32,077 bases of DNA from a virus, in IMG/VR virus record IMGVR_UViG_3300025849_000134, positions 1 to 32,077 of that record; one strand, given 5' to 3'. Both the position numbers and the translations under genes were made by a program. Below, piece after piece: positions 29 through 32,077 of this stretch. Within the stretch, counting starts at the first letter, position 1. Every line of letters begins with the position of its first letter. The notes under the pieces were generated by a model, which saw nothing but the letters and a program-made list of their open reading frames with translations, did not search any database and had not been told where the DNA came from.

Positions 29-60
29 GGGAACTTATTTAATTTATAAGCGTATAAGCA
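29..60 (+). promoter_or_regulatory. Promoter-like repeat, copy A
   Basis: GGGAACTTA (29-37), a 12-nt AT-rich spacer, then GCGTATAAGCA (50-60). The same two blocks with exactly the same spacing recur at 109 and 567. This copy lies 80 bp upstream of copy B with no gene between, so it may be a tandem promoter or a regulatory site. The GGAACTT block resembles the -35 element of ECF-type sigma factors; this is a resemblance only. Confidence 0.5.
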
Positions 61-71
61 AACTTTTACTA

Positions 72-94
72 TGTTAATAACTTGTGGATAACTT
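72..94 (+). repeat. 23-nt direct repeat with perfect DnaA-box core, copy 1
   Basis: A 23-nt element that recurs at 1253-1275 with one mismatch. Positions 83-91 read TGTGGATAA, the reverse complement of the classical DnaA box TTATCCACA. It lies in AT-rich non-coding DNA between promoter-like repeats A and B. It may mark a replication origin or a protein-binding site shared by two upstream regions. Confidence 0.5.
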
Positions 95-108
95 TATTTT
101 ATAAAAGT

Positions 109-140
109 GGGAACTTAATATATTTGATTGCGTGTAAGTA
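109..140 (+). promoter_or_regulatory. Promoter-like repeat, copy B, upstream of the first gene
   Basis: GGGAACTTA (109-117), 12 nt, GCGTGTAAGTA (130-140). It ends 27 nt before the ATG at 168, and an AGGAG ribosome binding site follows. This placement fits a promoter giving a short leader. Its recognition by a host or phage polymerase is inferred. Confidence 0.5.
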
Positions 141-167
141 GTAGAAATAAAAACAACAGGAGAACAA

Positions 168-413
168 ATGAACACAGCCGAAAGAATAAAAGATTTACTA
201 GAAACATTACAATCAGATACTGCTACAGATTTAAAACATTTAGAAATGTTAGAAAATGATAATATGTTTGATAGTCAATTTTTATATAGTAGAAATGATA
301 GTATATTAAAGGAGATAAAAGCAACTATACAAAGTGCTTTAAATATATTAGAAGAATTGGAAGAAGAAGAAACGCAAAATAAAACTATTCATAAATACCT
401 TATTAAAGAATAA
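168..413 (+). CDS. Small acidic protein of unknown function (81 aa)
   Basis: I do not recognise this protein. It is 81 aa, rich in Glu/Asp and Leu, and predicted almost wholly helical, with a run of Glu residues near residues 64-69. The start is well supported by AGGAG followed by AACAA before the ATG. It stands alone behind promoter-like repeat B and is followed by a hairpin at 428-452, so it may be a single-gene transcript. Position at the edge of the late region and small size fit an early or regulatory phage protein, but nothing in the sequence shows its function. Confidence 0.7.
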   Translation: MNTAERIKDLLETLQSDTATDLKHLEMLENDNMFDSQFLYSRNDSILKEIKATIQSALNILEELEEEETQNKTIHKYLIKE

Positions 414-427
414 GAGGCTATAATATT

Positions 428-452
428 TTAGGGTGTATAAGATATGCCCTAA
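428..452 (+). terminator. Hairpin downstream of the first small gene
   Basis: TTAGGG (428-433) pairs with CCCTAA (447-452). The stem continues inward to about 11 pairs including two G-U pairs around a three-base loop. It begins 15 nt after the stop codon at 413. There is no clear T-tract, so it may be a weak terminator, an RNA-protecting hairpin or a protein site. Confidence 0.4.
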
Positions 453-566
453 GGTATTATAATTGATTGTAGCCCTATTTTAATGCGTTTTAAGGGCATA
501 GTAATATAACTATTGTGTGTAGCTTGTGTATAGATATAGGAACTATATAAAGTATTTGATATATAT

Positions 567-598
567 GGGAACTTATTCCAGTCTATAGCGTGTAACTA
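567..598 (+). promoter_or_regulatory. Promoter-like repeat, copy C, upstream of the second gene
   Basis: GGGAACTTA (567-575), a 12-nt spacer unrelated to those of copies A and B, and GCGTGTAACTA (588-598). It ends 34 nt before the ATG at 633. Conservation of the two blocks and their spacing, with a variable spacer, is what a promoter would show. Confidence 0.5.
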
Positions 599-3229: not shown

Positions 3230-4808
3230 CATTATACCTCCTCCGTCTGTAATGGCGGAGCGTGATGAAGTATTAGCAAAAGCATACAAAGACTTAATAT
3301 TTTTTGGCCGTGTATTTTTGCCACAAGACTTTCTACATAAAAGTGAAAGTCCTCAGTTCCACTATGACTTATCTAAAAAGTTAATAGCACATCAACCTGG
3401 AGCACGTATTTGTAATATCATTCCTCGTGGTATGGGTAAGAGTATTTTATCTAAGGCTGCTATTATGCATAAATTTTTGTTTGCTGAAACAGATAAACAA
3501 AACTTTGTAGCATGGGTATCAGAAGAACAAGGACAATCTGTTGACCATTTAAAATATATACGACACCACTTTGAAGAAAACGAAATGATTCGTTACTACT
3601 TTGGTAATATGGATGGTGGTAGTGTAGGTAAGAGATGGACAGAAAAAGATATTGTTACACCTAAAGGTGATAGAATTATTGCTAAAGGTTCTGCTCAGAG
3701 ATTGCGTGGTCGTGCAGAAGTAGGTGTGCGTTACACTGGAATTATTCTTGATGACTTTGAATCAGAGCTAAATACAAAAACTCCTGAAAGAAGAGCAGAG
3801 TTAAAGAAGTGGATTGTATCTACTGTATATCCTTCACTAGAAGAAACACCAGGTAATGAAGGTTGGATATGGTTGACTGGAACTATTGTACACTTTGATT
3901 CTTTCTTACAAAACATATATGATGGAGTAAGAGATGCAGATAAAAATAATCGTAGCTACCCTTGGAATGTAACATTTCATAGAGCTGTAGAGGATGGAGT
4001 TCCTTTGTGGCCAGAACAATTTTCTTTAAAGAAACTAGAAAACAAAAGAAAAGAATTTATTGAAGCAGGACTAGTTAATAAGTTTGCTCAAGAATATATG
4101 AATGATGCTCGTGATTCTTCATCGGCTGCTTTTAAAATAGATAAAATACAAAACTATAATCATAAATTTGAAGTTAGAAACAACTATACTTATTTGGTAA
4201 ATGACCAAGAAGCTATTCCAATCAATGTTTATATAGGAGTTGACTTAGCTGCTACTGCAACAAAAACTTCCGACTATCAAGTAATTATGGTTATGGGTAT
4301 AGATGCAAATAAAAATAGATATATTCTTGATTATTTTAGAGACAAGATACCTGCATTTGATATGGCAGAACAAATTATTAAAATGGCAAGAGAGTATTCT
4401 CCAGTAAGAAGAGTGAGTATAGAAACTGTTGCAGCTCAAGAAATGGTAAGAGATATGACAACAAGAATGTCTCATCAAGATAGAAGATTAATGCCAGGAA
4501 TATTTAAAGGAGTTAAACCTCCGTATGGAATTAAAAAAGAAGACAGGCTTGAAACAGCACTTGGTCCTATTGTTAATTCTAAAAAATTATATATAAAGAA
4601 ACATATGACTGAAATAGTAGATGAGTTGTTTGAACACCCTAAACCAAAGAACGATGACTTGATGGATGCCTTGTATTATGCAGATTATTTTGCTAAAGCT
4701 CCTAGTAGCACGGCTATAGATGCACAAAACTTTGCACAAAACTTAGAAAAGAAAGCAAATATTAAGGCAAATAAGCTATATAACTGGATGACTGGGTCTA
4801 TTGACTAG
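3210..4808 (+). CDS. terL: Terminase large subunit (532 aa)
   Basis: The packaging motor ATPase and nuclease that drives DNA into the capsid through the portal. Seen in the protein: Walker A PRGMGKS (72-78), Walker B IILDDFE (178-184) with the catalytic acidic pair, the coupling motif TGT (223-225), and a C-terminal RNase H-like nuclease with D345 in YIGVDLA and a late acidic cluster in DDLMDALYYADY. The length is normal for the family. The start at 3210 overlaps the small-terminase gene by 20 nt and has only a weak AAAG upstream, so translation is probably coupled. An internal ATG at 3252 has no ribosome binding site and is less likely. Confidence 0.95.
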   Translation: MEKKRINIIPPPSVMAERDEVLAKAYKDLIFFGRVFLPQDFLHKSESPQFHYDLSKKLIAHQPGARICNIIPRGMGKSILSKAAIMHKFLFAETDKQNFVAWVSEEQGQSVDHLKYIRHHFEENEMIRYYFGNMDGGSVGKRWTEKDIVTPKGDRIIAKGSAQRLRGRAEVGVRYTGIILDDFESELNTKTPERRAELKKWIVSTVYPSLEETPGNEGWIWLTGTIVHFDSFLQNIYDGVRDADKNNRSYPWNVTFHRAVEDGVPLWPEQFSLKKLENKRKEFIEAGLVNKFAQEYMNDARDSSSAAFKIDKIQNYNHKFEVRNNYTYLVNDQEAIPINVYIGVDLAATATKTSDYQVIMVMGIDANKNRYILDYFRDKIPAFDMAEQIIKMAREYSPVRRVSIETVAAQEMVRDMTTRMSHQDRRLMPGIFKGVKPPYGIKKEDRLETALGPIVNSKKLYIKKHMTEIVDELFEHPKPKNDDLMDALYYADYFAKAPSSTAIDAQNFAQNLEKKANIKANKLYNWMTGSID

Positions 4809-4822
4809 AAACTTCTTGCCTA

Positions 4823-4860
4823 ACCAATTATAAAATTGGTAAATTTCAGCGTATAATTAC
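4823..4860 (+). promoter_or_regulatory. Hairpin followed by a -10-like element before the portal gene
   Basis: ACCAATT-ATAA-AATTGGT (4823-4840) is a perfect 7-bp hairpin after the large terminase gene. It is followed by AGCGTATAATTAC (4848-4860), which contains TATAAT and matches the GCGTRTAA block of the left-end repeats. The partner block GGGAACTTA is absent at the expected distance. It lies 19 nt from the portal start and may be a promoter that restarts transcription for the head genes. Confidence 0.4.
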
Positions 4861-4878: not shown

Positions 4879-6921
4879 ATGGAATACGACAAAAGAGCAT
4901 CAGCAAACCGAGAACTTTTTGATAGGTACAAAAACGATAGACAAGCTTGGGAGCTAGATGCTAGACAAGACCTTGACTTTTATCTTGGTAATCACTTTAC
5001 TGAGTTTGAATCTCAAGAACTACAACAAAGAAATCAAGCTGATGTCCCTATGGATAGGATTTCTCCTGCAGTAGAACGCTTAAAAAGTATGCTGACTTCT
5101 AGACCTCCTGTGTTTACAGTAGTTCCTAGAGAAGATTCAGATGCTTCTTTAGCTTATTTATGGAGAGAAATTATGGGATTTGCGTGGCAAAACTCAGAAG
5201 GTGATGCACAAGTAAAACAAGCTATACATGATTACTGTGTTGTAGGACTGGGATTTTTATATACTTATATAGATTATGATTCTGATTTTGGTAAAGGAGA
5301 TGTTAAGTTTTCTTACTTAGACCCTTTTAGAGTTTATGTTCCAGCGTCTTCAAGAGATAGATTTTTTTCAGATGCAGATAATATTATATTGTCTACCATA
5401 TTATCAGAAGACCAAGTATTAAATTTATACCCAGAGCTAGGAGTTAGTGTTGACCCAGAAACTGGAGAAGCAATAGATAGACTTGTAGATAGTATAACAA
5501 CATATTCTTATGACCAAGATTATCCTGACGCTGTTAATAAAACGTCTATGAACACTTATACGCCAGATACTGTTAGAGGATATACAGATACTAACTATAA
5601 GCGTTTTCAAATTTTAGAAAGATTTACAAAAGTAAAAGTTCCTTTTTATAGATTAGTTGATAATAATACTGGACAAGAGTTTATTGTAGACGAAGCAGAC
5701 TTTAGAGTTTTTATAGAAAAAAATAAAAAGATGTTAGAAATGGGACAGGTTGACATTGTACAGGTTTACCAAAATAGAATTAAAGTTACAGCAAGTATTG
5801 GTGAGGTAGTGTTATATGAGACTGTGTTAAATACGGATGTTTACCCTATTGTACCTATAGCAAACGTTTGGACCCAAACTCCCTATCCTCGTTCTGATGT
5901 TTCTAGGGCGAGACCAATGCAACGATTGCTTAATAAGTTATGGTCTTTGGCACTATCTCACGCTCAAGCGTCAGCTGGTTTAAAACTTATGGTTCCATTA
6001 GGAAGTGTAGAAAATGTAGCTCAGTTAGAAAAAGATTGGGCAAATCCAAATGCGGTAATAGAAGTAGACTCTACACAAGGAGAGCCTCACTATCCAGCAC
6101 CGCAACCTTTAACTGGAGAGTTTTATAGATTGATACAGCAATGTGAATTTTATATAAACTTTATTTTTGGTATTCCAGAAATAATGCAAGGTGTTGGTGA
6201 ACAGCCACAAACAGCTAGAGGAACAGAAAGATTGATTGCTCTTGGTAGTGAAAGACCTAAGTCAAAGCTAAGAGATATAGAATTTAGTATTAAAAGATTA
6301 GGTAAAGTAATGTATAACTATGCTAAAACACATTACGATGTACCAAAATTATTAAGATTGGCTCAACCCAATAATGATATAACAGAAACAATGGCTCAAG
6401 TATATAGTGATAAATCAAAAATTGTATTTGATTTAAAAAAAGAACAACACAACTTAGAGCAACATGATGTTGGTATTGAGTCTGGCTCAACACTTCCAAC
6501 AAGTAAGTATTCTGAGCTTGCAGTATATATGGAAGCATATCAAATGGGTATTGTAGACCAAGTAGAAGTATTAAAGAAAAATCCAGATATATTTGATAAA
6601 GATGGAATTTTAAAACGAATGAACCAAAGACAACAAATGCAACAACAAATTCAGTCTATGGATGAAACAATAAAGAATTTACAGGGAGACCTGCAAACGG
6701 CAACAAGAGAATCTATCTCAGATAGAAAGAGAACAGAGGTTGAGAAATTTAAATCTCGTCTCAATGAGGTAGAGTCTAACGCCAGTGCCGATAGGCGTAT
6801 AAACAAAAACAAGTTAAACGACAAGGTGTTGCTTGAACTAGAGAAATTACGTGGAGAAATCAAAGTGATGGAATCCGAAATGCGTAGTTCTTCTCAACAA
6901 GACAAGACATCGAAGGAGTAA
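4879..6921 (+). CDS. Portal protein, P22-like (680 aa)
   Basis: The portal forms the dodecameric ring at one capsid vertex through which DNA is packaged and ejected. The order of features fits long P22-type portals: an N-terminal helical stretch with LDFYLGNHF and PMDRISPAVERLKSML (roughly residues 30-75), a wing/crown body, a stem region with FGIPEIMQGVGEQPQTARGTERL (about 433-455), and a long Gln-rich coiled coil from about 580 to the end like the P22 barrel. It follows the large terminase and precedes the scaffold. It has no AGGAG-type site before the ATG, only an A-rich leader (CAAAAAAAT), unlike most genes here. Confidence 0.9.
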   Translation: MEYDKRASANRELFDRYKNDRQAWELDARQDLDFYLGNHFTEFESQELQQRNQADVPMDRISPAVERLKSMLTSRPPVFTVVPREDSDASLAYLWREIMGFAWQNSEGDAQVKQAIHDYCVVGLGFLYTYIDYDSDFGKGDVKFSYLDPFRVYVPASSRDRFFSDADNIILSTILSEDQVLNLYPELGVSVDPETGEAIDRLVDSITTYSYDQDYPDAVNKTSMNTYTPDTVRGYTDTNYKRFQILERFTKVKVPFYRLVDNNTGQEFIVDEADFRVFIEKNKKMLEMGQVDIVQVYQNRIKVTASIGEVVLYETVLNTDVYPIVPIANVWTQTPYPRSDVSRARPMQRLLNKLWSLALSHAQASAGLKLMVPLGSVENVAQLEKDWANPNAVIEVDSTQGEPHYPAPQPLTGEFYRLIQQCEFYINFIFGIPEIMQGVGEQPQTARGTERLIALGSERPKSKLRDIEFSIKRLGKVMYNYAKTHYDVPKLLRLAQPNNDITETMAQVYSDKSKIVFDLKKEQHNLEQHDVGIESGSTLPTSKYSELAVYMEAYQMGIVDQVEVLKKNPDIFDKDGILKRMNQRQQMQQQIQSMDETIKNLQGDLQTATRESISDRKRTEVEKFKSRLNEVESNASADRRINKNKLNDKVLLELEKLRGEIKVMESEMRSSSQQDKTSKE

Positions 6922-7677: not shown

Positions 7678-9045
7678 ATGGCAATAAGCGGACAAATTAA
7701 GTCAACAAACTTGACTGCTGCTACTACTGCTGCTGATTATGGAGTTGCTCCAGATAGAAGAAGATTATATAACTTTTCTGATAGGATTGCTGAACTAGCA
7801 CCTGAAGAAAGTCCTTTCTTCGTATACCTGAGTAAAACCGCAAAACTTCCTACGGATGATTCTTTGTTTCGTTATCTAGAAGATAGAACAAAGATTAATT
7901 ATACAAGTAGAGAGTTTTTATTAAAAGGCAACCACGATAGTAGTGCAGTACAAGTAGCTGGAGATATAGTAGCTTTTACTGTAGATACAGCTGACGGAGC
8001 TGCAGTAGACTTCCTTGTTAAAGGGATGGTCTTTGCAGTTAGAACACTTGGAGGTTCAGAAGGGGATGCAACTTACGCTAACATTATAGTTAGAGTAGAA
8101 GATGCACCTGTTCAAAATTCTGCTGATACAACTTTCACTGGTAAAGTGATTTCTGTATCATCAACAGCAACTAATGCAAATAAACTTTTAGATAATAAAA
8201 AAGGACAAATCATTGGTACAGCTTACGCAGAAGGTTCTGGGTCACCAGATGTTTTCTCAGACAGTTTAGAAGATAATTATGGGTATACCCAGATTTTCAA
8301 AACAGCTGCTGAGATTTCAAACACAGCATATGCAACACAACTACGTGGAGTATCTAACGAGTTTGAAAGAGTGTTAGCTCAAAAAATGAGAGAACACAAA
8401 ATCGATATGGAAAGAGCATTTCTTTTCAATCAAAAAGCAAAAGTAGGCGGAGTACAATACTCAGAAGGTCTAGTAGGTCACATCATTAAAAACAGTACAG
8501 TAGTAGCTGGAACTAACAACTTATCTTATGAGTCAGGTAAAGCATACTTCAGAACTGCACAAGCTTCAGAGCTTACTTACGATAGACTTTTATCAGACTT
8601 TGAAGTATTGTTTGACCCAGCTAGAGGCGGAAGTAACGAAAGATTAGCATTAGCTTCTCTTCCTGTTATCTCTTTCTTTAACAAAATGGGTAACGGCTCA
8701 TTTTCTGATATATCAACTGCTAGCACACAATACCAAATAAATATGGATGAACTATCAGGACAGTATGGTCACCAGTTAATGGAGATTAATACAGTTCACG
8801 GTTCAGTATTCCTAGTGAAAGAACCTCTATTTAGAGGACATTCATCTGGTATGATGGCTATGGCTGATATGAGTAAACTATACTACAGACCATTAGTAGG
8901 TAACGGAATCAATCGTGATACTCAAGTCATGACGAATGTACAAAGTGCAGACGAAGACTTAAGAAAAGATATGATTCTTACTGAAGCTGGACTAGAAGTA
9001 TGTCTACCAGAATCACATTACTTAATTAATTTAGAAGGAGTGTAA
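7678..9045 (+). CDS. Major capsid protein (455 aa)
   Basis: The shell protein of the head. It follows the scaffold gene, has a strong AGGAG site, and contains the N-terminal pattern DRIAELAPEESPFFVYLSK (about residues 36-54), close to the LxPxExPF motif of SU10-type HK97-fold capsid proteins (DUF5309 group). Later segments include a helix with AAEISNTAYATQLRG and ERVLAQKMREHKIDMERAFL (about 212-260), probably the spine helix, and a beta-rich C-terminal half. An HK97 fold is inferred. There is no sign of a cleaved N-terminal scaffold domain, consistent with the separate scaffold gene. Confidence 0.85.
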   Translation: MAISGQIKSTNLTAATTAADYGVAPDRRRLYNFSDRIAELAPEESPFFVYLSKTAKLPTDDSLFRYLEDRTKINYTSREFLLKGNHDSSAVQVAGDIVAFTVDTADGAAVDFLVKGMVFAVRTLGGSEGDATYANIIVRVEDAPVQNSADTTFTGKVISVSSTATNANKLLDNKKGQIIGTAYAEGSGSPDVFSDSLEDNYGYTQIFKTAAEISNTAYATQLRGVSNEFERVLAQKMREHKIDMERAFLFNQKAKVGGVQYSEGLVGHIIKNSTVVAGTNNLSYESGKAYFRTAQASELTYDRLLSDFEVLFDPARGGSNERLALASLPVISFFNKMGNGSFSDISTASTQYQINMDELSGQYGHQLMEINTVHGSVFLVKEPLFRGHSSGMMAMADMSKLYYRPLVGNGINRDTQVMTNVQSADEDLRKDMILTEAGLEVCLPESHYLINLEGV

Positions 9046-17500: not shown

Positions 17501-18160
17501 AGTCAAAATGTCGGTATAGGAACTGGCTCACCTGCAGTAGATTTACACATATTAGATACAGGTGGACACTCACAATTAAGAATTGAAACCGATAATGCTG
17601 GTAGTGGTGCTTATCTTGAATTAGAAGATACAACTAATAAATATGTAATAGGTAATGTTGGTGGAGATTTAGTAATAGATGAAAGTGGTGTAGCAGAAAG
17701 ATTTAGAATTAAAGATAGCACAGGTAGAATTGGTATAGGACTTTCTTCACCAGCTCACATTTTAGATGTTGTTGGAACTGCAGGACTAAGCACAGGAACA
17801 GCTTGGACTAACACTTCTGATAAAAGAATTAAAACTAATGTAGAGAATATAGAAAATGGTTTAGATAAAATACTGAAACTAAGACCAGTTTCCTTTAATT
17901 ATACAGAAGATTATTTAAAAGCAAACCCAGAACTTTCTGGCTCACAAAGATATAACTCTTTTATTGCTCAAGAGTATGAAGAAGTTTTTCCAGATGCAGT
18001 AACATCTGAAAAAGAATTAGTTGTAGATGATAAAGTTATCTACGATGACTTAAAACAATTTACACCTCACGACTTGAATATGTATTTAGTAAAAGCAATT
18101 CAAGAAATGAAGTGTGAAATAGATGAACTCAAACTCAAACTAGGAGAGAAAAATGGCTAA
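14528..18160 (+). CDS. Tail fibre/spike with S74 intramolecular chaperone domain (1210 aa)
   Basis: The host-recognition fibre. N-terminal part: tandem AELNILDG units at 70-77 and 83-90, then TDINLIDG at 96-103, a common repeat of marine phage fibres. Middle: beta-helix-like repeats containing LYHDGTNS and DDGSGGIATYITLDGS. Then four V/I-GIG units at about 842, 916, 995 and 1068. C-terminus (1096-1210): SDKRIKTNVENI, LRPVSFNY and FIAQEYEEVFPDAV, which identify a Peptidase_S74 chaperone. That domain trimerises the fibre and then cuts itself off, normally just before the Ser of the SDxR motif (S1097 here). The start is weakly supported, 3 nt after the adaptor stop. Confidence 0.9.
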   Translation: MATLTGQRIKDSYKDLLQVSNSNSGIDSTLRVISDGEATDSVLQLSTTAVNISSAGALQYAGVAITSTAAELNILDGATVTVAELNILDGVTASATDINLIDGITNGTVIASKAIITDSNKDITGGRNITISGELDAATLDISGDADIDGTLETDALTIGGVTSVPFEAADHSKLDGIEASADVTDTANVTSSGALMDSELASIADIKALDQSVVSGATPTFTTTNFTDASNKRLMTDAQETKLDSVESNATADQTDEEIQDVVGAMFSSNTETGITATYQDGDGTIDLVVGTLNQDTTGTASKATVTDSTANTNFPVVFHDEGTGNVLLDDTGALRYNPSTGELLVPKLTVAGTTTTVDTVTMEAANAIKFEGATADANETILSIVDPTNDDNTQYLLNASGYIPLLNAVSTTVITATPTELNYVDGVTSNIQTQLDATLDTAGTGIDISSTTISVDVSDFMSNGADNRVLTATGTDAMNAEANLTFDGNYLRLSDNKLLIMGAGDAFQIGHKATYSNIATYEGHLYIDNNADDQDIIFRCDDGSGGIATYITLDGSISKTTLSKDLRAVDNVKITAGNADDLQLYHDGTNSTLQNNTGTLSIIQNTDNGNMVFKNDNGSGGTASYFYLDGTNERTQFDKGAKFVDNAKIQVGTGVDLEIYHNGTNSFIDNNTGYLQIAQKVSDADIFIEVNDGGGAINAIVIDSSEVGRVKLPNDNQYLSIGASGDLYFFHDGTNSVIRNATGDLVLRNDEADQDIILQTDDGSGGIATYITLDGSATSIEIGKKMQFPASHSADKIVMYSGGNEKIGTEANTLLFTADNYKFKDTNGDVNLFMNNSGQVGIGTNSPNMKLNISHGDQDGLRFNCTSTTGEAFIDFGDSGDNDAGSLRYDHNDNSMKFRVNASERMRITSAGNVGIGDNNPPNKLSVKGSSTDLLYLEGDGITSNSIIQSATGGSTRIRSAGGKIEFYTDGSANSSSASGADFAMVVDASQNVGIGTGSPAVDLHILDTGGHSQLRIETDNAGSGAYLELEDTTNKYVIGNVGGDLVIDESGVAERFRIKDSTGRIGIGLSSPAHILDVVGTAGLSTGTAWTNTSDKRIKTNVENIENGLDKILKLRPVSFNYTEDYLKANPELSGSQRYNSFIAQEYEEVFPDAVTSEKELVVDDKVIYDDLKQFTPHDLNMYLVKAIQEMKCEIDELKLKLGEKNG
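16157..16197 (+). repeat. Internal fibre repeat, copy 1
   Basis: A 41-nt segment encoding DGSGGIATYITLDG that is nearly identical (one base different) to 16817-16857, exactly 660 bases downstream. Similarity extends about 25 nt upstream around GACCAAGATATTAT. Such in-frame repeats allow recombination that changes fibre length. Confidence 0.75.
16817..16857 (+). repeat. Internal fibre repeat, copy 2
   Basis: Partner of 16157-16197; same reading frame, one mismatch, spacing of 220 codons. Confidence 0.75.
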
Positions 18161-21885: not shown

Positions 21886-22148
21886 TGCAAACATTAAGTA
21901 AGTTGGCCAAAGATTTAGAATCTGTTTTTAACAGTCTTGACCAAAAGGTGCAATCTAAAACATCTAAAAGCTTACAGCAATGGGTTGTGGAGTGTGTATC
22001 GGCTTTAGCCTACACGCTCACACTTGCTGTTTCATTCTTTCTTATGGTGTTAGCAGTAGGAATAGTATTACTGTTTTTAATCACAAGTTATATGGTAGAA
22101 CTATCTGTAAAAGGATGTAAAGAATTATACGAATATGCCAAACGATAA
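21885..22148 (+). CDS. Small membrane protein of the lysis cluster (87 aa)
   Basis: A helical, charged N-terminus (about 1-35) and a long hydrophobic region (about 43-72, ALAYTLTLAVSFFLMVLAVGIVLLFLITSY) that could form one long or two short membrane helices, then a short basic tail. An upstream in-frame ATG at 21864 would add seven residues, but it has no ribosome binding site of its own, while the ATG at 21885 is at a TAATG overlap with the 10-codon frame. It may act as a second holin or antiholin; the family is not recognised. Confidence 0.6.
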   Translation: MQTLSKLAKDLESVFNSLDQKVQSKTSKSLQQWVVECVSALAYTLTLAVSFFLMVLAVGIVLLFLITSYMVELSVKGCKELYEYAKR

Positions 22149-26792: not shown

Positions 26793-28309
26793 TGGCTAAC
26801 GGAAAAGGATTAACTAGAGATATAAATGTTAGTTATAAAGAGCCAAGCACTAATATCGTTGACTCTATATTTGGCACTACAAGAGATAGATTAGAGCGTG
26901 CACAGATAGAAGCACAAGAAAGAATTGCTGAAAAACAATTAGAAGAAAAAGCTAAACGTGATAACTATAACTTGTTTTTAAAGTTTGAAAAGCAATTTCC
27001 TGACATTTCTAAAAAAAGAGAGATGGCTGAATCTATGAATCTTACTGAAGTTGTAACATTATTTGATAATACATATGATTTTCCAGACTTAAAAATACAA
27101 GAAAATTCTATTAAAGATTTTGATAAAGCTGAAACAGCTGATGAACTTGTAGCTTTGTATAAAACAATAGACCCAGATGGTCCATATGTTGATAGAGCAC
27201 GACAATCAGCAGAAGCTAAAATGACAAAAAGTTTTTCTAAAATTATTAGCAGTATAGATAGAACTCAATATTCACAAGATACAAACAGATATGGCAGTTT
27301 GACTACTGAGATAGCTGGATTGAGACAACAAGAAGTTAACTTTAGAGGAGTTTTTCCACAAACAGAATTAGAATCAGATGCTGAATATCAATCTAGATTA
27401 GAATCAATAGATTTAAATACTGCAAGACAAATTCAAGGTGGAAGTATAATTATTGGTACAGGAGACAATCAACAAGAATTAACATATGCACAGCTTAATG
27501 AAAGGATTTCCAACCTTGACAAGGAATATCTACAATTAGACAAAAGTATACAAGACTTTAATTATTTTAGGGATAACAAATTAGACTATGCTATTGCACA
27601 ATACGATAAAAAAAATAATATAGACTCACAAGGTGATGGTAGTACATCCTCAGTAAATGAAGATGAAACAGAAGAGGTTATATCTAAGGTACCTATTGCA
27701 GAATTTGAAGATTTATCTCCAGATGCTATAGAAACTCTTACAAGCCTAGACATTACAGAGTTTGAAGAAAATGCATTTGATGCAAACCCAGAAGAAGTTT
27801 TAGACCCTATTTCATCTACTTTAGAAAATATATCTGGATTATTGACTGATGATACTCCTGACTATATGAGTGGTCGTATGTATACAGAAAAAGAATTAGC
27901 TGCATTTCCTTTATCAGTAGATAAACTTATTTCTGAAATAGACAATATAGGTGGGAATATTTCTACAAGTGAAGCATTAGAACTTTTAGATAGTTTAGAA
28001 TTAAGAGGAACTAGTGCGATAACAGACGCACTCCCAGAAAAAATACTTGGTAAACCAGTTAAAAAGAAAGAGTTTGACCGAAGAGCGACTCTTTTTTCTG
28101 ATGGTAAACGTGTAGATGACACCAGAGGGCCAGACTTAGAAAAACTTAGAGACTTACAAAAAAGATATACAAGAGTTGAAAATGGTGTATTAAAACCAAG
28201 TCTTAAAAATAAAAGACTAAACTTAATTCAAAGTAAGATAGACGTAATTGAAGAAAGATTAAGTCGTAATGTTTACTTAGATGAAATACTAGAATTATTA
28301 GGGCAGTAA
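26792..28309 (+). CDS. Putative internal virion protein (505 aa)
   Basis: A 505-aa acidic, mainly helical protein with a strong ribosome binding site (AAGGAGGG) inside the end of the previous gene and a TAATG overlap. The first 100 residues contain a coiled-coil-prone, charged helix (RLERAQIEAQERIAEKQLEEKAKR), the middle is Glu/Asp-rich, and the last 60 residues form basic helices. No enzyme motif, signal peptide or membrane segment is visible. Position between the Gln-rich protein and the giant protein suggests a middle component of an internal core, by inference. Confidence 0.55.
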   Translation: MANGKGLTRDINVSYKEPSTNIVDSIFGTTRDRLERAQIEAQERIAEKQLEEKAKRDNYNLFLKFEKQFPDISKKREMAESMNLTEVVTLFDNTYDFPDLKIQENSIKDFDKAETADELVALYKTIDPDGPYVDRARQSAEAKMTKSFSKIISSIDRTQYSQDTNRYGSLTTEIAGLRQQEVNFRGVFPQTELESDAEYQSRLESIDLNTARQIQGGSIIIGTGDNQQELTYAQLNERISNLDKEYLQLDKSIQDFNYFRDNKLDYAIAQYDKKNNIDSQGDGSTSSVNEDETEEVISKVPIAEFEDLSPDAIETLTSLDITEFEENAFDANPEEVLDPISSTLENISGLLTDDTPDYMSGRMYTEKELAAFPLSVDKLISEIDNIGGNISTSEALELLDSLELRGTSAITDALPEKILGKPVKKKEFDRRATLFSDGKRVDDTRGPDLEKLRDLQKRYTRVENGVLKPSLKNKRLNLIQSKIDVIEERLSRNVYLDEILELLGQ

Positions 28310-31300
28310 TGCCTGAAGGTCAAAGAACTTATAATAATTCTTTTACTCCTAGCTTAGGCGTTGGAAGACCAGCACCAATTAAGTTGGCTTTTCCTGGACA
28401 CGTCAATAACTTTCTAAAAGAATCATATAATAAAAGCACAATCGGTTTGGCTGACCAGCTAATTAATGGTGCGGAAAGACATGATTTATCTCAATATGAA
28501 TATGGAACCCTCTTTGATGTAGGGACTACCGTATTATCTTTTATTGGAGACATACCTGCATACCTAACTGGTGCAGGATTCGCATCGGTTGCTTTAAAAG
28601 GAGCAGGAAAACAAACAGTAAAAAGAGTTGCTTCAAGCAGTGCTAGAAATAAAATGAAACAAAACATTGGACAAGCTAGTAAAATTTTAGCAGACAATGG
28701 AGCAAACCCTACCTACATTAATCAAGTCCAAAAACAATTAACTAAAACTTTTGTAGATAATGGTGATAGATTATTAAAAGATTCATCTGGTTTTTCAGTG
28801 ATTAGTGGTACACACGAAATGCTTAGACAAGGTGTAAACGATGAAGATTATGACTGGCTAAAAGGAATTAATAAAGCTATAGTTGGTGCGGTTGTTTTAC
28901 CTGCTGGTAAAGTTGGTGGTATTGCAGCCACTAATATTGTTGGAAAAAAATCTCCAATACTAAAAGGAGCTTTAGGATTAGCTGGTGAATCAGCTGGGTT
29001 TGTTGCACCTTACTCTTGGTCAGAAGGAAATCTTATGCCAAATCCTCAAGACTTAGGACATACCATTGGTTTGTTAGGTGGTATTAATTTACTGACTAGA
29101 GGTAGACTAAGTAGCATTCAAAGTAGAAAAGGTATAATAGAAGAAACTAACGCAGCGTTTGGAAATAAGAATGCTATTAAGTTTAAAGATAGGCCTGAGA
29201 ATATAAAGATTAAAGCTGGAGAAGCTTTAGAAAGAGATATAGCAGCAAAGAAAGCTTCAGATGTTATAAGGGGTGGAGAGCAGTTTTGGTCTAAAGATGG
29301 TTCTTTAGTTAGTGTTGTAGAAAAAGGTCTTGATACAATTACTTATAAATCCGCAGGATTAACTAAGCCTAAGACAGTACCATCGTCTGAGTTTTATAAA
29401 GAATTTAATATAGTACAGAGTAAAAAAGCTCCAAGATTTGAACTAGTAAGAAGTATTGGAAGAGAACTTGACACTTTAGGTATAAACGATACAAACCAAA
29501 TAAGAAAAATAGTTTTTGGATTAAGAAATGGAAACGTTCCTAAAGGATTAAAGCCTTCAGACAGAGGATTAGGTTCATTAACAGAAAGAGAATTATATCA
29601 ATTAAATAAAAAACTATCTCAAAAATCTCAACTAGAAAAGTTTGCTCAAGAACTAGCTGCAGTAGAGGTAGAATATTCTAGGCAATATTTACCTGGAGTA
29701 TTTGGAGGAATATCAAGAGCCTTTGATAAACTAACATTAGATGGATTTACTATTCCAGTATTAGGTAAAAGAATTGAAAGTCAAAACTATTTATCTGGAA
29801 TTAGAAGTGTAGAAGCAAAACTAAGTAAGCCAGGGGTTGCTTTAGAAGCAAAACATTTAATGTATCAAGTTAGCCATCACGCAGATTATTCATCACAAAT
29901 AGCTGCAGCTGTTTTGGGAAGACTAAACAAAATACCTGGTGCTAATATGAAAAATATGACTGATAAAAAACTTATGAAATTAGTTACTGAAGAGCTTGAA
30001 ACGAATGTAGGTATCACCTCTAATATGAGTAATATAGCTAAAGAAATGAGAAGTATATACGATGACCTTTATAAGGCTGGAGTAAAAGAAGGTCTAGATA
30101 TGAAAGCATACCAAGGTAATTATGCAGGAAGATTTTTACAAGAAGACTTAGCTGATTTGTTAAGAAACTTTAGAGCAGATATAAATAGAAAAGAACCAAG
30201 AGTGTATGCTGGGGTAGACAAAATAGCTAACGACCCAGAAGTTGTAAGTTTTTTACAAAATAAATTATCAAACATATTAAAAGATAATGCGGGAAACAAA
30301 CCTCTTCAAACTTATTTTAAATCATTAAAGCAACAATATGGAAATGATGTTGTTAAAATTTTTACTGACATGGACAGGCATTTAATACAAAAAAAGTCTA
30401 GACCTTTTAGTAATATAGATAAGTCAAGAACTGGTAATGTTAGTTGGGTTCCTGGAAAAGGATATAACATACCTATATTTGAAGAGAATGCTTATGCCAA
30501 CATACTAAACTATACAAACCAAATGGCTAATCAGTTAGCTACCAAGAAATTTTTTGGGACTAATTATCAAAATGCAATACAATTAATTGATGATGTATCA
30601 ACAGGTAAGGTTGGTAAAACAGCAGACAGAGCTACTGCAGATACAATGAAAGAGCTTATGCTTAGAGTAACTGGTGCTATAGAATTAGACCCATCTAGAA
30701 ATCTATCTCCTAAAAATAAAGAGTTTGTAAGACAGATGGTTAATTTTGAAATTGGTACTAAAATTGGTGGTGGTCTTGCAACGATTGTTAATATAACACA
30801 ACCTCTTATTTCATCTTTATTTCTAGGTAATTATAGAGTTGGAATACCAGGTTATATGAAACGATTTGTTTCTGGAGACAGAAAAGCATTATTAAAAGAA
30901 ATGGGATTGTATGGGGATAGTCAATTTTTAAACACAATGGAAGTTCTTACTGGTACATCAAAACGTGGGAACACATTGAGTGATAGGATTGTAGGTAGGC
31001 TTACAAAGTTAACTGGTTTTACAGGAATGAACAGGTTAAATCTTGAAACGTCTGCTTCTGTAGGTATTGATATGATGCGTTACTTAAATCGTGTAGCTAA
31101 TGGGGAGAATGTGTTATTAAAAAATGTTCCTCTTTCAGCTAGTGCAAAGAAAAGAATTATTAATGATACCTTAGCTGGTCAAAGTAGAACGGCGTGGGCC
31201 AAACGTAAACTCTCAAGAGATTATGGAGTTACTTGGACTGGTAAAAAAGAAATAGGTATGACAGAGCTTACGCAAGGTGCAATTAGATTTGCTAAAGATA

Positions 31301-32077
31301 CTCAGCTACAAAGAAACTTATTAAAAGAACCTTTGTTTTTAACAGAGCCAATGTTTAGACCTTTATTAGTTCTGAAAACGTTTGGTATTAAACAATCACA
31401 ATTAATATCTAAAGGACTTGGAAGAGAAGTTCGTGAAGGAAATGTATTACCTGTTGCTAGATTAGCAATCGGTGCTGGTATTGGCGGTAAATTTATTATT
31501 AACTCTTATGAGTTTATGCAAAATCTACTATCTGGTAAAGATGAGTATGATTGGAGAAGAGCAAAACAAAGTTTTTCAGAAATGAAACCAGGATTTATTT
31601 CAGGAGAAGAGAACTATAAAAGAGCAGATTACTGGACAGAACTTCTTACACCTACTATGGAAGAGCTTGCAGCGGTAGGAACAATGGGAGTTGTAACAGA
31701 CTTTATGTCTGCTGATAATAAAATGGGTAATCTAGGATATATACTTGAACCTGTTATATGGGATGACGTTACAACGGTTTGGAACGGCCTAACAAGTATC
31801 TTTGAAGATGTAGATGATTATGGAGTCAGTGGAGCAATGAAGCGTTCACCACAAAACTTTAGTAAATTACTTGGTTCTAATATAAAAAATTTAACAAGAC
31901 GATTAGAAACTGATAGGCAGTCTGAAGGAAGAATAGAGTCTCAAAGAAGAAGAGTTCACAGAGAGATAGTTAAAGATGTTTACCAAGGAAAAAATGCAGA
32001 AGCTAAAAGAAAAATTATATCTTGGAACACAGCTCACCCAGACCAACCTTTGCTACAACCAAATGCAGAAGAAGTAT
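28309..32077 (+). CDS. Very large putative ejection/internal protein, 3'-truncated by window (>1256 aa)
   Basis: An open frame from the TAATG overlap at 28309 to the window edge, over 1256 codons without a stop. N-terminal third: hydrophobic, Gly/Ala-rich segments at about residues 72-100 and 188-240 that could insert in membrane, as expected for ejection proteins. Middle: long charged helices. Late part: ATIVNITQPLISSLF (about 824-838) and surrounding helices recall regions of large polyvalent phage proteins. No transglycosylase, polymerase or protease motif is seen in the visible part; one could lie beyond the edge. It may act like T7 gp16. Confident as a gene, moderate for role. Confidence 0.7.
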   Translation, partial: MPEGQRTYNNSFTPSLGVGRPAPIKLAFPGHVNNFLKESYNKSTIGLADQLINGAERHDLSQYEYGTLFDVGTTVLSFIGDIPAYLTGAGFASVALKGAGKQTVKRVASSSARNKMKQNIGQASKILADNGANPTYINQVQKQLTKTFVDNGDRLLKDSSGFSVISGTHEMLRQGVNDEDYDWLKGINKAIVGAVVLPAGKVGGIAATNIVGKKSPILKGALGLAGESAGFVAPYSWSEGNLMPNPQDLGHTIGLLGGINLLTRGRLSSIQSRKGIIEETNAAFGNKNAIKFKDRPENIKIKAGEALERDIAAKKASDVIRGGEQFWSKDGSLVSVVEKGLDTITYKSAGLTKPKTVPSSEFYKEFNIVQSKKAPRFELVRSIGRELDTLGINDTNQIRKIVFGLRNGNVPKGLKPSDRGLGSLTERELYQLNKKLSQKSQLEKFAQELAAVEVEYSRQYLPGVFGGISRAFDKLTLDGFTIPVLGKRIESQNYLSGIRSVEAKLSKPGVALEAKHLMYQVSHHADYSSQIAAAVLGRLNKIPGANMKNMTDKKLMKLVTEELETNVGITSNMSNIAKEMRSIYDDLYKAGVKEGLDMKAYQGNYAGRFLQEDLADLLRNFRADINRKEPRVYAGVDKIANDPEVVSFLQNKLSNILKDNAGNKPLQTYFKSLKQQYGNDVVKIFTDMDRHLIQKKSRPFSNIDKSRTGNVSWVPGKGYNIPIFEENAYANILNYTNQMANQLATKKFFGTNYQNAIQLIDDVSTGKVGKTADRATADTMKELMLRVTGAIELDPSRNLSPKNKEFVRQMVNFEIGTKIGGGLATIVNITQPLISSLFLGNYRVGIPGYMKRFVSGDRKALLKEMGLYGDSQFLNTMEVLTGTSKRGNTLSDRIVGRLTKLTGFTGMNRLNLETSASVGIDMMRYLNRVANGENVLLKNVPLSASAKKRIINDTLAGQSRTAWAKRKLSRDYGVTWTGKKEIGMTELTQGAIRFAKDTQLQRNLLKEPLFLTEPMFRPLLVLKTFGIKQSQLISKGLGREVREGNVLPVARLAIGAGIGGKFIINSYEFMQNLLSGKDEYDWRRAKQSFSEMKPGFISGEENYKRADYWTELLTPTMEELAAVGTMGVVTDFMSADNKMGNLGYILEPVIWDDVTTVWNGLTSIFEDVDDYGVSGAMKRSPQNFSKLLGSNIKNLTRRLETDRQSEGRIESQRRRVHREIVKDVYQGKNAEAKRKIISWNTAHPDQPLLQPNAEEV

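Follow-up and report, generated by a model that had tools for sequence, protein, structure and literature searches.

A Two-Box Element with ECF-Like Promoter Features Recurs before Non-structural Genes in a Phage Family Known from Environmental Contigs

At the left end of the virus record IMGVR_UViG_3300025849_000134, copies of a two-block DNA element stand in front of small genes, which raises the question of what kind of signal they form and what reads it. The window analyzed here (32,077 bases) is the whole IMG/VR virus record, yet it is a fragment of a phage genome. It is of the tailed-phage type, with PHROG matches for TerL, portal, and major head proteins.

Three Exact Copies at the Left End of the Window

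A pattern scan of the window found three mismatch-free copies of GGGAACTTA-N12-GCGTRTAA, all on the + strand, and these were still the only matches when up to three mismatches were allowed. At that tolerance, shuffled versions of the window gave a mean of 0.12 matches, and 0 of 100 shuffles reached three. The two blocks are kept exactly 12 nt apart at 29, 109, and 567, as originally noted; the spacers of the copies, also as claimed, are unrelated to one another, while blocks and spacing are fixed. The features of the region are:

29-57, + strand: copy A, GGGAAC(TTATTTAATTTATAAGC)GTATAA; exact match, upstream member of a tandem pair 80 bp apart
109-137, + strand: copy B, GGGAAC-N17-GTGTAA; exact match, orthologous copies in relatives, ends 30 nt before the ATG at 168
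168-413, + strand: small gene (81 aa, from the ORF list) behind copies A and B; RBS CAGGAGAACAA ATG
538-566, + strand: possible additional copy, weak, AGGAAC-N17-ATATAT, immediately upstream of copy C; near-same sequence in the relative G001; low confidence
567-595, + strand: copy C, GGGAAC-N17-GTGTAA; exact match, ortholog at 4545-4573 in G001, ends 37 nt before the ATG at 633
633-875, + strand: small gene (80 aa, from the ORF list) behind copy C
879-925, + strand: strong hairpin followed by TTTT (RNA fold of 876-1010)

Copy B follows copy A at a step of exactly 80 bp, the interval contains no gene, and this step is kept in G001, G002, G003, and G005. Copies B and C do precede gene starts, as had been noted, at 30 and 37 nt instead of the 27 and 34 nt first given. 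Neither the 81-aa nor the 80-aa protein has a PHROG match or a Pfam match above cut-off. Judged by its predicted fold, the 879-925 hairpin is a probable intrinsic terminator that would end the short copy-C unit ahead of the packaging operon.

A half-copy, AGCGTATAAT, had also been proposed before the portal gene (GCGTATAA at 4849). There, TTATAA stands where GGGAAC would be expected at spacing 17, and the corresponding sequence is TCAATAAAAT in G003 and GACGATAAAT in G005. The half-copy is not conserved and was dropped.

Related Phages and the Arm Missing from the Window

No near-identical phage record to the window was found, and the best matches of its TerL and capsid proteins to named phages are below 30% identity. 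Hundreds of IMG/VR contigs carry a related TerL; the best 80 were retrieved (70-100% identity). The family is uncultured, is probably marine, and comprises hundreds of environmental contigs without a close isolate. One relative, G001 (44,434 bp), has the same 87 bp at both ends and is therefore apparently a complete genome. Comparison with G001 showed that a leftward-transcribed non-structural arm of ~10 kb, located left of base 1, is absent from the window, and it is in this arm of the relatives that most copies of the element sit. In G002, the non-structural arm also encodes a GroES-like co-chaperonin (17871-18140; Cpn10, E 1e-20; gene assigned by sequence start).

A Family-wide Motif with One Spacing

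Across the family the element takes the form TGGGAAC-N17-GTRTAA, often continued by G, or equivalently GGAAC-N16-[AC]GTR. Block 1's TTA and block 2's GC are common in window-side copies without being universal. When up to one mismatch is tolerated, G001 has 12 copies of GGGAAC-N17-GTRTAA, G002 has 10, and G003, G005, and G006 have 6 each; there are about ten near-identical copies per genome in the closest relatives. Most of the more distant relatives have 1-4, and 3 of the 14 records have none. The element first noted in one contig thus recurs in relatives, up to 12 times per genome, while a reversed control pattern gave 0 matches in all 14. Further contigs retrieved by DNA pattern carry it too, several with 4-7 copies.

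The spacing is strict: 29 distinct sites were found at N17 and none at N13-16 or N18-20. Among 93 GGGAAC words in six relatives and the window, 37 are followed at spacing 17 by a word matching at least five of the six positions of GTRTAA, other spacings giving 0-6 each. Positions that played no part in selection are conserved as well, namely a T before GGGAAC (40/42), an A five bases before (38/42), an A or C before GTR (38/42), and a T at position 16 (32/42). GGGAAC itself was the selected seed, and GGAAC is retained in most one-mismatch copies. The base before GTR is C in 17 and A in 21 of the 42 copies, R and then TAA follow, and GT is a selected position; spacer positions between the boxes are only weakly conserved. 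TATAAN words end mostly in G or A, and GTGTAA is tolerated.

Chance, or copied repeats with no regulatory meaning, would be an extremely improbable source of such sites. Markov shuffles predict 0.01-0.035 matches per genome against the 1-11 seen, the spacers are unrelated while boxes and spacing stay fixed, and no point in favor of this explanation was found.

At G001 3486-3514, and at the equivalent positions in G002, G022, and G025, GGGAAC...GTTCCC is arranged as an inverted repeat around the spacer; this copy could be an operator. A repressor operator as the sole function of the element was rejected, since it leaves the fixed spacing unexplained.

Copies Precede Non-structural Genes on the Coding Strand

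Copies are nearly always intergenic and on the coding strand; in six relatives, 28 of 29 strict sites lie outside same-strand ORFs. In the mechanically called ORF set, many strict sites stand 19-158 nt before a start, and some have no called start within 200 nt. The genes behind them comprise small unknowns and operons with an ERF recombinase, a Cas4-like nuclease, an HTH_39 winged-helix protein, and a probable resolvase. The first genes on either side of the divergent region bear the motif. Just behind the HTH_39 gene stands a copy whose conservation, apart from small changes, extends as far as a relative with 70% TerL identity. No strict site was found in the structural and packaging half of G001 or of the window.

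At three sites (G001 43968-43996, G011 38844-38872, and G025 22063-22091), the -10 box overlaps an AAGGAG RBS-like word just before the ATG, an arrangement that suggests leaderless transcripts or overlapping signals.

Likeness to Known Promoters

Recognition by sigma regions 4 and 2 characteristically shows as two short boxes at one spacing with a free spacer between them, and this form suggests a sigma factor as the reader. T7-type promoters, which are likewise repeated before phage genes, consist of a single uninterrupted conserved block recognized by a single-subunit polymerase, whereas the phage element is two boxes flanking an unrelated spacer. The element also differs from sigma-70 TTGACA-N17-TATAAT in its -35 box (GGGAAC), its tolerance of GTGTAA, and its G or A at the end of TATAAN.

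ECF promoters provide a closer match. Their -35 boxes include GGAACTT of RpoE and ATTGAAACCTTT of SigW (PMC8103513), and Streptomyces sigmaE targets often start with GGGAAC (PMC6767563). Promoters of EcfG, which governs the general stress response of Alphaproteobacteria, read GGAAC-N16-CGTT with an invariant AAC in the -35 (PMC7083833). The phage element shares the GGAAC -35 with its AAC and the 16 nt to an NGT -10 core. It departs from EcfG promoters in the T and G that precede GGAAC and in the -10, which continues as GTRTAA with a conserved TAA and not as CGTT, a difference that counts against an ECF reading; it also belongs to a phage regulon. Bacillus SigW promoters, TGAAAC-N16,17-CGTA (PMC2375139), have the same AAC core, a spacing of 16, and a CGTAT-like -10, but the phage -35 is GGGAAC and not TGAAAC, A is as frequent as C before GTR, and the context is a phage genome.

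The element combines AAC in a GGAAC context, a fixed N16 to [AC]GTR, and a position upstream of genes on the coding strand. By sequence, then, it resembles the ECF-like promoter class that had been proposed: recurrent, nearly always intergenic, on the coding strand, and with an ECF-like -35 core and a candidate ECF-like -10 core at ECF spacing.

Search for a Phage-Encoded Reader

A phage sigma factor or single-subunit polymerase, encoded outside the window, had been suggested as a possible reader, and the searches returned neither. Profiles of sigma regions 2 and 4 (PF04542 and PF08281) gave no match in 14 relatives, including the apparently complete G001; as a positive control, the PF04542 region-2 search does detect gp47, the divergent sigma of phage 7-11. 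The single-subunit RNA polymerase profile (PF00940) had no match in nine relatives, and control genomes gave no match either. When 112 non-structural proteins of four relatives were compared with Pfam, 23 families were matched, none of them a sigma or a polymerase. The larger non-structural proteins of G001 include the ERF protein, a Cas4-like PDDEXK nuclease, the HTH_39 winged-helix protein, and a probable resolvase, and no sigma.

Two further candidates were rejected. The giant virion protein (28309-32076), considered as a packaged polymerase, has no DxDxD motif kept among its homologues and no family match. A conserved 137-aa early protein, considered as a hidden sigma, yielded only an unusably weak structure model (pLDDT 55).

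The same promoter class could be read by a specificity factor of the phage itself, one diverged beyond recognition; in that case the elements would be a sign of middle genes and not of immediate-early ones. Phage 7-11 sets a precedent: its late promoters, GTAAtg-16-aCTA, are read by gp47, which is only 15% identical to phi32_gp36, the phiEco32 sigma (PMC8948821). They too form a family of two-box phage promoters at a fixed spacing, but 7-11 encodes its sigma and uses it for late genes, whereas here no sigma was found and the non-structural arm is served. The strict motif is almost confined to this phage family and was enriched in no sampled bacterial group, which favors such a factor. Against it stand the empty sigma searches, of which the region-2 search does detect gp47, the list of larger G001 proteins, and the presence of the motif before the first genes to either side of the divergent region, because of which something must read the motif at once. 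We consider a divergent factor unlikely.

The -10 box invites another reading, in which GGGAAC is bound by a phage or host activator at -35 while GTRTAA serves as a degenerate -10 for sigma-70. T4 MotA is an example of an activator at -35 combined with a sigma-70 -10. Besides the TATAA-like -10, the HTH_39 protein conserved in the non-structural arm, the conserved copy directly behind its gene, and the copy with inverted GGGAAC...GTTCCC would suit such an arrangement. It is nevertheless quite improbable, as the -10 does not end in the T of TATAAT and tolerates G inside (GTGTAA), both boxes fit an ECF core at ECF spacing, and a phage-made activator would come too late for the genes transcribed first.

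Search for the Host

TerL relatives were absent from the bacterial genome collection and, in a search without positive control, from 398 Pseudomonadota genomes. Across the collection of bacterial and archaeal genomes, a 16-base version of the motif had 38 scattered matches, of which many fell within genes; in IMG/VR it matched 19 stretches, most of them of this phage family by protein comparison. Motif enrichment was seen in none of 13 of the genomes with matches, nor in 299 Pseudomonadota, 120 Marinimicrobia, and 147 Pelagibacterales, these three groups showing background only, and no sampled genome has more than three sites. Host assignment through known phages was abandoned, as TerL, capsid, portal, and ERF matches fell below 45% identity and had mixed hosts; a search for tRNA genes as a host clue found none.

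Because no sampled bacterial group is enriched, the case for a host sigma is weakened and room is left for an undetected phage factor. Pelagibacterales are the obvious abundant marine host, yet they show a background motif level, which counts against a host sigma. So does the near restriction of the strict pattern (16-17 bases) to this phage family in IMG/VR, as a common host sigma might serve other phages too. The host-sigma reading is still tenable because an ECF regulon may comprise few sites and copies in the host may be weaker.

These counts bear also on a host primary sigma with an unusual consensus that would read GGGAAC-N17-GTRTAA. In its favor, phages usually rely on the primary sigma for their early genes. 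We regard it as very unlikely, as many host sites would be expected and no sampled genome exceeds three.

A Host ECF-Type Sigma as the Favored Reader

Since no sigma was detected in the phages, host core RNA polymerase with a host ECF-type sigma is the most likely reader, and we give an about even chance to the elements being a promoter regulon of the non-structural program read in this way. A host ECF-type sigma, already present when the phage DNA enters, would recognize GGGAAC as the -35 box and GTRTAA as the -10 box, exactly 17 nt apart. Transcription would start at the element, early in infection, and would cover the leftward non-structural genes (recombination, nuclease, HTH, and small unknowns) together with the two small rightward genes of the window; the structural operons would use another signal.

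Phages usually begin with the host housekeeping sigma or bring their own specificity factor. More tentatively, with somewhat less than an even chance, the whole non-structural program may be under host ECF (stress/envelope) sigma promoters in a phage family without its own sigma, so that infection depends on or senses the ECF state of the host. If so, about ten strict ECF-type promoters and no recognizable phage sigma would tie the start of the phage program to a host alternative sigma. A search of open-access literature, far from complete, found no such case described. The motif also offers a handle for finding the host of this family.

Other Structures near the Elements

Behind the first small gene of the window, a hairpin at 419-461 has a 20-bp stem (-21 kcal/mol, z -4.7) with no T-run after it; its counterpart in G001 differs in sequence, the stem apparently being kept. 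The intergenic stretch at 1020-1140, before the packaging genes, contains repeated GGTTACCCTAAT / GGTAACC words and is nearly unchanged in G001, whereas the small genes that precede it differ.

Pairs of the form TGTTAATAA-CT-TGTGGATAA, two DnaA-box-like words 11 bp apart, occur in the window at 72-91 and 1253-1272 and in G001 at 4061-4080, 5313-5332, and 8873-8892 (- strand). They lie between copies A and B, ahead of the packaging operon, and in the TerL-portal gap of G001 and G002, and contig L016 has a cluster of TGTGGATAA boxes. From their sequence, these pairs may represent a DnaA-dependent origin or sites for a regulator at operon boundaries.
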